64,000 bases of DNA, taken from the NCBI GenBank assembly GCA_036489315.1, contig DASXFZ010000010.1, positions 124,001 through 188,000 of the forward strand, read 5' to 3'. Under the pieces are notes generated by a model. It did no database searches. It was not told where the DNA came from and saw only the letters and a program-made list of their open reading frames with translations. Source of the DNA: Candidatus Cybelea sp. (lineage in GTDB: Bacteria; Vulcanimicrobiota; Vulcanimicrobiia; Vulcanimicrobiales; Vulcanimicrobiaceae). The number at the start of each line of letters is the position of its first letter. The first letter of the stretch is position 1. Shown here piece by piece: positions 20,605-23,776 of the stretch. Made by a program: the position numbers and the translations under genes.

Positions 20605-20733
20605 TTGCTATCAACGTCGGGCGGTCGGCCCGAGCAAACGCGGCATCACCCATCCTTGTCGGAAAGCACCCGAATTCCCCCCGGCCTGCGAGCTCGCCCG
20701 AGCGGCCGCTTTGAGGAGTTTTCGGGGCGCATG
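20605..20733 (-). promoter_or_regulatory. GC-rich, structure-prone leader or small-RNA region
   Basis: No ORF with coding character. On the minus strand it holds several potential stems (GCTCGGGCGAGC; CGG ... CCG around GTGCTTT) before the terminator at 20571-20604. It does not match the conserved cores of TPP, cobalamin, SAM-I, glycine, c-di-GMP-I or fluoride riboswitches that I can recall. Confidence 0.35.
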
Positions 20734-20761
20734 TGAAACCACCGGGCCTAGGTGTGGTGTC
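20734..20761 (+). promoter_or_regulatory. Candidate ECF-type promoter for the sigma factor operon
   Basis: TGAAAC (20734-20739) followed after 18 bases by TGTC (20758-20761) resembles ECF promoters (for example sigma-W TGAAAC...CGTA). Placed here it would allow autoregulation and start transcription near 20768, upstream of the GTG start at 20807. Spacing is slightly long; inference. Confidence 0.35.
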
Positions 20762-20806
20762 GGGCAAGGTATGAGCGCGCTCGCACCACTCCTTGCAGGA
20801 GTATAC

Positions 20807-21439
20807 GTGCCATCAGTGATTCCGTCGGGCCGAACCTCGGCCGTGCAGGCGGCGGGCGACTCGGCTCCCAGCGTCCAGAACTTCGAACGGATCGTCGATG
20901 ATTACCAGCGCCGTCTCTATGGATTTGCGCTGCGCATGACCGGCAACCGGGAAGACGCCGAGGAGATCGTCCAGGACGCCTTCGTGCGCGCCTATCGCGC
21001 GCTCGGCAAGATGTCCTCGGAGCAACGCGCAGACCTGCGCCTGCAGCCGTGGCTCTATACGATCACGCTCAACGTAACCCGCAACCGGCTGCGCAGCAAG
21101 CGCCCGTCCAACGTCGCACTCGACGCGCTAGCCGACCCCGATGCGCTCCTGCGCGAGTCAAACGAAGGGCCGCCGCAACCCGAAGCGATCGTCGAGCAGA
21201 ATACCGAGATCGCGCTGGTCGAGCGTGCCCTTCTCCAGCTGCCGATGCACCTGCGTGCCGCGGCCACCCTGCGCTTTATCGAAGGGCGCAGCCACCCCGA
21301 GATCGCCGAGATCCTCAATCAGCCGATCGGAACCGTAAAGTCGCACGTTCACCGCGCCGTGCGAATCTTACGCCGCATACTCGGCCCGCAAATCGGAAGA
21401 TTCGCCCCCGAAGGAGTTCCAGTACATGCGTTGTCGTGA
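20807..21439 (+). CDS. ECF sigma factor (sigma-70 family)
   Basis: 210 residues from GTG 20807, favoured because CAGGAG ends five bases upstream; an ATG at 20771 in frame would add 12 residues but has AAGG too close. Region 2 (YGFALRMTGNREDAEEIVQDAFVRAYRAL split across two helices, DAEEIVQDAF being the key motif) and region 4 (PEIAEILNQPIGTVKSHVHRAVRIL) are both complete; region 3 is absent, so this is an ECF type. It overlaps the following anti-sigma/alkyltransferase gene by 14 bases, so the pair should be translated in fixed ratio. That partner is expected to hold the sigma factor inactive until it is modified. Confidence 0.88.
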   Translation: MPSVIPSGRTSAVQAAGDSAPSVQNFERIVDDYQRRLYGFALRMTGNREDAEEIVQDAFVRAYRALGKMSSEQRADLRLQPWLYTITLNVTRNRLRSKRPSNVALDALADPDALLRESNEGPPQPEAIVEQNTEIALVERALLQLPMHLRAAATLRFIEGRSHPEIAEILNQPIGTVKSHVHRAVRILRRILGPQIGRFAPEGVPVHALS

Positions 21440-22157
21440 CGTTGATGCGTTATGGGACGAGCTGCGCGGCGAGTGCCGAGCCTCGTTAAAAGAGACCGTC
21501 CATACACATCTGAGCGCCTGCCCCTCCTGTCAGGCCGTCTACGAACAATACGCCGGTGTCGCCTACTGCCTCTCCTGCCTGCCGCAGCCCGAGCCTTCGT
21601 GCGATCTCGCCAAGAAGGTCATCACGCACATTGCCGCGCTCAAGGGTAAACTCTCGGCCCCGATCGTGCTGGCCGTAGTTTCCACACCTTTGGGCCGGCT
21701 CTACGTCGGATTCAAGGCCGAGCGGATTGCCTACGTCAGCCTCGATACCGGCGATCCGCCGGAGGAAATTGCGGCGCGCGCCGAGCGCCGGCTGCGCCGG
21801 AGCATTGTTTCCGGAGACGCGCCCGGCTGGCTCGTTCGGGCAATCGAGCGATTCTTCAGCACCTGGCAGGTCGACGATGCCATCATGGACTTGAGCGATC
21901 TCACCCCGTTCGAGCAGGACGCGCTCCGCGCGGCGGCCAGCATTCCGCCCGGTGAAGTCCGCTCGTACGCCTGGGTTGCGACGCAGATCGGCCGACCAAG
22001 GGCCGCACGTGCCGTTGGACGGGTGATGGCACGCAATCCAATGCCCCTTCTCTTTCCCTGCCACCGCGTCGTCGACTCCTCAGGCGATCTGCACGACTAC
22101 TATTACGGCCTCGAGATGAAAGCCCGACTACTGCAGATGGAGGGCTACCGCGGCTAG
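21426..22157 (+). CDS. Anti-sigma zinc-finger domain fused to O6-alkylguanine-DNA alkyltransferase
   Basis: 243 residues from ATG 21426, with AAGGAG nine bases upstream. Residues 1-60 are a zf-HC2-type anti-sigma domain: Cys3, then His28-x3-Cys32-x2-Cys35 (HLSACPSC), plus Cys48/Cys51. Residues 80-243 are a complete Ogt/MGMT: an N-terminal beta region (STPLGRLYVGF), the recognition helix with arginine finger PRAARAVGRVMARNP (191-205), the acceptor motif PCHRVV (Cys212) and the closing GLEMKARLLQMEG with the conserved Glu. There is no membrane helix. Following the logic of Ada, transfer of an alkyl group to Cys212 may relieve inhibition of the sigma factor encoded immediately upstream. The domains are clear; the mechanism is inference. 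Confidence 0.9.
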   Translation: MRCRDVDALWDELRGECRASLKETVHTHLSACPSCQAVYEQYAGVAYCLSCLPQPEPSCDLAKKVITHIAALKGKLSAPIVLAVVSTPLGRLYVGFKAERIAYVSLDTGDPPEEIAARAERRLRRSIVSGDAPGWLVRAIERFFSTWQVDDAIMDLSDLTPFEQDALRAAASIPPGEVRSYAWVATQIGRPRAARAVGRVMARNPMPLLFPCHRVVDSSGDLHDYYYGLEMKARLLQMEGYRG

Positions 22158-22240: not shown

Positions 22241-23776
22241 ATGGCCGATCCTCGAGTATCCGCCATCCCGGACGTGCACGGCCATGCCAAGGGCGAGCAC
22301 CGGCCGTTCACCGAGGAGCGCCCGATCGCATATTCGGCTCGGATGCTCTTCCTCTGGTTCTATCATGCTTGCCGGCGAATGTCGCCGCGCTTTCTGATGG
22401 TCGCCGATCACGCCAACTACCTCACGTTTGAGGACCCGGGGGCGGTTGCGACGGTCAGGCGCGCGCTCAAGCTCGCGCATGCCGGCGACCTGCTCGGGGC
22501 CGCCGAGACCGCCGGCGTCGAGATCTCGCACGCGGCGCTGGTCTCGGAGGGACTGCGGCGCGGCATGCGTTTTGCCATCGGCGCTGAGATCGACAACGAC
22601 CCGCGAGCACGCCCCGATGCTCAGAACATCGTCGATGCCCTGCGTCCGGACGGCATCATCCGTTCCGTGCACTTCGTTCCGATCCAGCATCCCGAGAAGG
22701 GGGCCGACTGGTCCTGGCCGTTCGACAGCCCCGAGTTCAGCGCGCTTCACGATCTGATTCCCCCCGAACGGCTGTGGGAGCTCTATACCGCCCGGCTCTT
22801 CGACGATATCGAGAAGCTGCCGACGCACATCGTCGGCCACTTCTACGTTCCGGCGGTTTACGGGCGCTGGCCGAATCAGAAGCTGCTCGAGCAGTACGAA
22901 GACCGGCTTCTCGACCTCTGTCACGCGCGGGGACTCGCCGTCGAGATCAACACGAGGTTCCTCTACCGCGATCATCCCGAGGAGCGCAAGCAAAAGTACC
23001 TGGAAGCCAACTCGCGCCTCGCCCGCAAGGCGAAGGCCCGAGGCGTCGGGATCGCGGTTGGCTCCGACGCGCACAGTCCGAAGGATCAAGGCAATGGGTT
23101 CGACGTGATCCTCCGATTGCTCGACGACGCGCACATCAACGAACTCGTCTTCCCAGTCGGCGGACGTCTGGCTCGCGTCGCCTTGCGCGCCACCCGCGAA
23201 CACCTCGAAGCCCAAGCGCAGGCGCGCCGCCAGCCGGCAGCGCCGGGAAGCAGTATCAGCGGATATAGCCGCGCCGAGTTGGGCCTGCCCGAAGAGAGCG
23301 AAAGCGTCGCCGGCTCGCGGTCGTCTCGCCGAGAAGGCGGCCCAAAGAAGCGCTCGGCTCCCGCCACGACGAGCACCTCGCGCCGAACCGTCGATTCGAC
23401 TTCTTCTGCTACGAAAGCGAAGGCGGCCCGCTTGGAAAAACTGGCCCCGGAACCGAAGAAAAAGGTCGCAAAGCAGCCCCCGCGACCGCCGGCGGCGCCT
23501 GCAAACCGAAAGAAAACGCCGGTGAAACCGCCGCCGCGAAGCAGCGCGAAGAAGTCGCCGGCCCCGCCGGTTAAGCCAAAGAAAGCGGTGCCCCGGAAGA
23601 GCCCGGTTCGCAAGGCGCCCAGCAAAAAAGCCGAGACGTCGAGCAAGAAAACCATTCGTAAGAAAACCGCGGTGAAGAAAGCCGTTCCGCGGCGACCGGT
23701 CAACAAGTTGAAGCGGCCGGCCGGAGCCGTCAAAAAGACCGCTAAGAAGAAAAAGACTGCGGCCAAGCGCCGCTAG
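22241..23776 (+). CDS. PHP-domain metal-dependent phosphoesterase with histone H1-like Lys/Pro/Ala tail
   Basis: 511 residues. Residues 1-320 form a PHP domain: DVHGHAKGEH at the start, ADHANY, GAEID and GSDAHSP provide the metal-binding His/Asp/Glu residues, as in histidinol phosphatase, PolX and YciV families. Residues from about 360 to the end are a disordered tail rich in KKS, PKKA, KKT and RKKT units, like histone H1 or bacterial HU-PAAKK tails, and should bind DNA or RNA. The combination suggests a nucleic-acid-directed phosphatase or nuclease. No Shine-Dalgarno before ATG 22241. Confidence 0.8.
   Translation: MADPRVSAIPDVHGHAKGEHRPFTEERPIAYSARMLFLWFYHACRRMSPRFLMVADHANYLTFEDPGAVATVRRALKLAHAGDLLGAAETAGVEISHAALVSEGLRRGMRFAIGAEIDNDPRARPDAQNIVDALRPDGIIRSVHFVPIQHPEKGADWSWPFDSPEFSALHDLIPPERLWELYTARLFDDIEKLPTHIVGHFYVPAVYGRWPNQKLLEQYEDRLLDLCHARGLAVEINTRFLYRDHPEERKQKYLEANSRLARKAKARGVGIAVGSDAHSPKDQGNGFDVILRLLDDAHINELVFPVGGRLARVALRATREHLEAQAQARRQPAAPGSSISGYSRAELGLPEESESVAGSRSSRREGGPKKRSAPATTSTSRRTVDSTSSATKAKAARLEKLAPEPKKKVAKQPPRPPAAPANRKKTPVKPPPRSSAKKSPAPPVKPKKAVPRKSPVRKAPSKKAETSSKKTIRKKTAVKKAVPRRPVNKLKRPAGAVKKTAKKKKTAAKRR

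Follow-up and report, generated by a model that had tools for sequence, protein, structure and literature searches.

In the 64,000-nucleotide stretch of DNA analysed here (the window), an ECF sigma factor gene (20771–21439, forward strand) is followed on the same strand by one open frame of 243 amino acids (21426–22157), which encodes an N-terminal zinc anti-sigma (ZAS) domain and then a complete O6-alkylguanine-DNA alkyltransferase. This ZAS–alkyltransferase fusion gene was defined from the reading frame, Pfam, an alignment of 69 copies and a structural model. The sigma stop codon ends at 21439 and the fusion ATG lies at 21426, so that the two genes share 14 bases (21426–21439), as the first-pass annotation had described; such an overlap suggests translational coupling. 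An ECF sigma gene was found immediately 5' of the fusion in all 67 loci with enough upstream sequence, with an overlap of 14 bases in 51, an overlap of 11 bases in 5 and a gap of 0–8 bases in 11. Directly 3' of the fusion lies a gene for a PHP-domain protein with a long Lys/Ala/Pro-rich tail (22241–23776), and in several relatives a pyrrolidone-carboxylate peptidase-like ORF is placed between the two.

The sigma protein was recognised by Pfam as Sigma70_r2 (E 7e-16) and Sigma70_r4_2 (E 3e-13), both over cut-off and the only sigma regions that it has, and its assignment to the ECF type was given by TIGR02937 sigma70-ECF at 95 bits (cut-off 42.9). The best solved relative of the sigma profile was SigW (E 2.9e-28). 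Across the order the sigma factor was 72–92 % identical and the fusion less conserved, at 45–86 % identity to the window copy; no sigma ortholog outside the order was found at E 1e-25 in 20 genomes. The sigma start had earlier been placed at 20734, which proved wrong, as that base opens a stop codon in the given frame and sits within the −35 element (20733–20740). The gene is instead predicted to start either at the ATG at 20771 or at a GTG at 20807 preceded by AGGAG. The ribosome-binding-like AGGAG and the GTG (20797–20809, forward strand) form a likely alternative start based on conservation in relatives: a GGAGTATACGTG-like sequence is kept at this position in many of them, and divergent loci such as L063 and L070 have no upstream ATG at the sigma start position.

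A probable sigma-dependent autoregulatory promoter was located at 20733–20761 on the forward strand, consisting of the −35 element GTGAAACC, an 18-base spacer and the −10 element GTC. The motif GAAAC[CT] was present at the expected position 5' of the sigma gene in 58 of 65 loci, 40 of which had GT(C/T) 18 bases after it, and in most family members it was preceded by GT. The operon therefore probably drives itself from a predicted GTGAAACC-N18-GTC/T promoter. The strict motif, GTGAAACC-N17-19-GTC, was scanned over 18 genomes of the genus and gave about four sites per genome. These were mostly singletons, no recurring target promoter was found besides the operon's own, and for this reason no claim is made for a regulon. 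A looser motif gave 7 sites against 8 for a reversed control; its matches were considered mostly chance and were set aside. The operon motif with its spacing was also not found in the regions upstream of the other MGMT genes in the window's genome. Members of the genus carry a dyad of the type ACCAC-N10-GTGGT in the −35/−10 spacer (20737–20760 in the window), which is possibly an operator or possibly a chance product of the promoter letters.

The fusion is a single gene: no Met codon occurs between residues 2 and 153, and its full-length copies in relatives are unbroken, so that the possibility of two separate genes was ruled out. Pfam recognised the alkyltransferase far above cut-off (PF01035, DNA_binding_1, E 7e-28), and the window protein alone gave a weak zf-HC2 match of 18.7 bits against a cut-off of 22.2 (E 0.0019). 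The residues named in the first-pass annotation were all recovered: Cys3, His28, Cys32 and Cys35 of the zinc motif, PCHRVV (211–216) with Cys212, the arginine finger Arg195, and Glu239. Good support for its description of the protein as an anti-sigma/MGMT fusion comes from an RsiW profile match, an invariant CHCC site, the invariant coupling to a sigma gene, the complete catalytic site and the full AGT fold.

The N-terminal zinc anti-sigma domain covers residues 1–77 (21426–21656, forward strand), as judged from profile matching, zf-HC2 and predicted helices. A profile built from 61 copies of this domain matched RsiW in the SigW complex 5WUQ (E 9.4e-5, residues 19–75) and, more weakly, chain 3HUG_B (E 0.021), which we take to be the anti-sigma partner known as RslA. 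The zf-HC2 domain was recognised in 22 of the 61 copies, with a best E of 2.9e-5. The structural model of the domain had a pLDDT of 82 and helices predicted at residues 4–15, 21–31, 33–41, 43–50 and 61–77, in the expected order; a Foldseek search of this model against the PDB gave no fold match. The zinc ligands Cys3 (21432), His28 (21507), Cys32 (21519) and Cys35 (21528), spanning 21432–21530 on the forward strand, were unchanged in all 69 copies as C3-x24-H28-x3-C32-x2-C35. This spacing agrees with the published definition of a ZAS domain, which is HxxxCxxC with a Cys or His 23–26 residues before it (PMC4960319). In class I anti-sigma factors helix 1 touches sigma4, often via an acidic residue, and helix 4 touches sigma2 (PMC7406223). 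Trp10-Asp11 in helix 1 of the fusion was invariant among the 69 copies, and a probable sigma2-binding helix 4 was assigned to residues about 59–76 (21600–21653, forward strand) by alignment with the helix-4 region of RsiW. The domain would be expected to bind both zinc and the sigma factor. Extra cysteines occur beside the zinc motif, at position 48 in 62, position 51 in 59 and position 59 in 40 of the 69 copies, and these possibly form a second redox or metal site.

The alkyltransferase domain covers residues 79–240 (21660–22145, forward strand). Its model had a mean pLDDT of 84–96 in each ten-residue block from residue 81, and its best match was the C-terminal domain of Escherichia coli Ada, 1SFE (Z 19.7, 161 residues, 2.4 Å). 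The two-subdomain AGT fold was found over residues 78–242, and the next-best matches were other alkyltransferases. The PCHRV active site (22056–22070, forward strand), with the acceptor Cys212 at 22059–22061, was invariant in all 69 copies, as were Y181, N204, P211, H213, R214, V215 and E239; R195 was present in 68. The alkyltransferase half is complete and would be predicted to be active in repair. A dead, ATL-like alkyltransferase was ruled out by the invariance of Cys212. Three other members of the family were identified in the window's genome (G000), so the fusion is not the cell's sole alkyltransferase. One is an AraC-HTH/MGMT gene (contig C44, L002:1152-2055) broken by an apparent frameshift, apparently a pseudogene or an assembly error. 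Another is a 176-residue ATL-like protein (contig C22, L004:1252-1782) with PAHR for PCHR, a change of Cys to Ala. The third is a stand-alone Ogt, and the presence of this separate enzyme means that the fusion need not persist for repair alone.

The window comes from a Candidatus Eremiobacterota MAG, and the distribution of the fusion was determined by hand count across 149 genomes of this phylum, with fusions counted whether whole or cut by contig ends. It was present in 98 of the 103 genomes of one order, including 94 of 99 in the window's family and all four in a second family, with the neighbouring ECF gene present at each of the 67 loci noted above. The five genomes of the family without it were 61–88 % complete. 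It was found in none of the other 46 genomes of the phylum, where the families had stand-alone alkyltransferases only. The carriers are soil bacteria of a little-studied phylum. No ZAS–MGMT fusion from outside Eremiobacterota was found in a plasmid collection, and a contig scan with a single query sequence had a reach of close relatives only. The neighbouring genes are also conserved, so that the locus is old and vertically inherited, with its zinc site and suicide enzyme intact and joined for as long as the order has existed; synteny of the locus across the order ruled out that the fusion had arisen laterally or by accident in a single MAG. The 69 distinct full-length copies used for the constraint alignment extend down to 45 % identity, and the invariance of the zinc and catalytic residues among them, bar one change at R195, is far from chance and means that both halves are selected as one protein.

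Within the order, a sister type of ECF/alkyltransferase system was identified both in the second family and among several genera of the first (L123:2451-4538, L124, L125, L126, L127, L128, L129–L133, L136 and L137). In these loci the gene after an ECF sigma gene encodes a protein that opens with a short helical segment, continues with an alkyltransferase bearing PCHRV and ends in an Ada_Zn_binding domain that keeps all four cysteines. A nucleic-acid 2OG-Fe(II) oxygenase (PF09859, E 3.5e-75) adjoins the pair in four loci. The sister sigma in one genome (G029) was 47 % identical to that of the window; the sigma tree gave no support either way for a common origin of the two. In the alkyltransferase tree, the fusion and sister domains grouped with two genes from class-mates and apart from the Ada and Ogt genes of the phylum (96/83). 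These class-mates' MGMT genes (L139 and L140) branch near the ECF-linked clade and have no adjacent sigma gene.

The sister pair was also found in Actinomycetota, in Rubrobacter radiotolerans, Nonomuraea gerenzanensis and three Streptomyces plasmids. These plasmids (L163, L165 and L166) carry an ECF sigma gene together with genes for an MGMT-Ada(Zn) protein and for a separate MGMT close to metF, and on these linear plasmids the clusters possibly represent an island for methyl metabolism or alkylation. On a plasmid of Streptomyces sp. NBC_00212 (L167:1685-3031), sigma region 4, an alkyltransferase and an Ada zinc domain are combined in one 448-residue protein, in which Pfam did not recognise sigma region 2; the gene is followed by that of a stand-alone MGMT. 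No ZAS zinc site is present in the sister proteins. The two kinds differ in having a ZAS zinc site versus an Ada acceptor site, and have in common a sigma factor, an alkyltransferase and probably helix 4. As the alkyltransferase is common to both kinds and the ZAS zinc site is not, the alkyltransferase is the likely sensor. The ECF plus MGMT-Ada(Zn) systems and the sigma/acceptor fusion of NBC_00212 give strong, though indirect, support to alkylation as the input.

Compared with known systems, the fusion is best read as ChrR-like in layout and Ada-like in logic. As in Ada of E. coli, which provides the closest AGT fold, a suicide alkyltransferase lies inside a regulator that would serve the alkylation response; unlike Ada, the fusion lacks both the AraC DNA-binding domain and the N-terminal Cys4 acceptor domain, and its output would pass through an anti-sigma domain and an ECF sigma factor. 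Neither an Ada zinc domain nor an AraC-type HTH was found in the fusion protein by Pfam, and an Ada zinc domain was absent from the window's genome at E 1e-5. RsrA/sigmaR resembles the fusion system in its CHCC site, with a Cys 23–26 residues before HxxxCxxC, and in a similar −35/−10 pattern, but RsrA is a single domain that senses disulfide stress, whereas the fusion carries an alkyltransferase of 165 residues as well. RsiW and SigW are the closest solved relatives of the N-terminal domain and the sigma factor by sequence profile. RsiW is membrane-bound and released by proteolysis, and the fusion has an enzyme domain where RsiW has its membrane part. ChrR, like the fusion, is a soluble ZAS protein that carries a sensor domain at its C-terminus and whose gene directly follows that of its ECF sigma factor, but ChrR pairs an HHCC site with a cupin, in place of CHCC with an alkyltransferase, and responds to singlet oxygen (PMC4960319, PMC6432622).

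A link between ECF sigma factors and MGMT has been published for group ECF122, which is listed in a review with 6-O-methylguanine DNA methyltransferase neighbours and, unlike the present system, without an anti-sigma factor (PMC8999054). ECF122, compared here by description only, is possibly the MGMT-Ada(Zn) sister type. The first-pass annotation knew of no described system with the present architecture; this held for the ZAS–MGMT fusion itself, which was not found in the literature searched (the main ECF classification paper lay outside that search), but not for the association of ECF sigma genes with MGMT neighbours. The fusion therefore joins two known kinds, ECF122 being already published and no ZAS–alkyltransferase fusion having been found in the literature or the plasmid collection.

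ZAS domains hold ECF sigma factors, and Ada turns alkyl transfer into a transcription signal. We consider it reasonably probable that the fusion is a soluble class I (ZAS) anti-sigma factor that has a fused working alkyltransferase as its sensor and releases the sigma factor on alkylation. In the unstressed cell the N-terminal domain (helices 1–4, with zinc at C3/H28/C32/C35) would keep the co-translated sigma factor off RNA polymerase. When the alkyltransferase encounters an alkyl donor, O6-alkylguanine or some other, Cys212 would irreversibly take up the alkyl group. Alkylated AGT is destabilised, and such destabilisation of the fold, or engagement of the lesion, may then loosen the anti-sigma domain and free the sigma factor. 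Using the GTGAAACC-N18-GTC promoter, the freed sigma factor would transcribe the operon that encodes it, supplying more sigma and more unused repair/anti-sigma protein, and the fresh fusion would repair leftover lesions and recapture the sigma factor once the damage is gone. The gene fusion, the coupling, the zinc and catalytic residues, the predicted alkyltransferase fold and the conserved promoter are the parts of this scheme to which sequence analysis lends support; sigma binding, zinc binding, repair activity, release on alkylation and a wider regulon are what we infer. The chances are about even that the system is a one-way, self-resetting switch in which each repair spends one anti-sigma and frees one sigma, so that damage is counted, and that it belongs to a wider class of ECF/alkyl-acceptor systems in several phyla, independent of the AraC-type Ada.

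Sigma release on alkylation is weakened as a reading by the position of the window's N-terminal domain below the zf-HC2 cut-off and the lack of a PDB fold match for its model, by the recurrence of the strict motif only at the operon's own promoter, and by the lack of a ZAS zinc site in the sister proteins. The main rival is an RsrA-like thiol switch, in which oxidation or electrophile attack at the CHCC site (C3 with C32/C35) frees the sigma factor and the alkyltransferase is a passenger that comes along with the induced stress response. Such a switch would be consistent with the promoter, as GTGAAACY-N18-GTC/T is similar to GGAAY-N18-GTT of the SigR type. In RsrA a zinc site of the CHCC type senses disulfides, and its N-terminal Cys was found necessary in oxidative release (PMC4960319). 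Redox may for this reason be the input or a second input, and C48 and C51 are also present in many copies. We nevertheless regard the thiol switch as unlikely, given that the sister ECF systems keep the alkyltransferase and add an Ada acceptor domain while lacking the ZAS zinc site, and that a passenger need not remain fused order-wide, with no split copy among the full-length matches.

Alkyl uptake could also occur at a zinc-bound ZAS cysteine in the style of the Ada N-domain, where zinc-bound thiolates are methyl acceptors, leaving the alkyltransferase only to repair. We know of no ZAS site that acts as an alkyl acceptor, and the sister proteins have a separate Ada domain for alkyl uptake and no ZAS site. 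These points make such a zinc-thiolate sensor quite improbable, despite the invariance of the three zinc cysteines and the true Ada zinc domain of the sister proteins. The likeness of the N-terminal profile to the anti-sigma factor RsiW, and a conserved self-promoter typical of regulated ECF sigma/anti-sigma operons, argue in turn against a system free of alkylation or redox control, in which the N-terminal domain acts as a tether between the alkyltransferase and the sigma factor or RNA polymerase for transcription-coupled targeting, or proteolysis controls the anti-sigma factor. A tether would likewise keep the fusion and the operon and would agree with the lack of a regulon found by the strict motif, but we judge this explanation very improbable.

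Bacterial alkylation sensing is known mainly via Ada-type AraC activators. If sigma release on alkylation is correct, a sigma/anti-sigma route with a repair enzyme as its sensor would constitute a second design for alkylation sensing, and would explain why some ECF groups adjoin alkyltransferase genes. The means by which a sensor domain fused to a ZAS protein brings about sigma release is a question already raised (PMC4960319), and it would become testable here, where the chemical input is defined and the acceptor is a single residue. In these bacteria, the repair of alkylated DNA could itself switch on defence genes.
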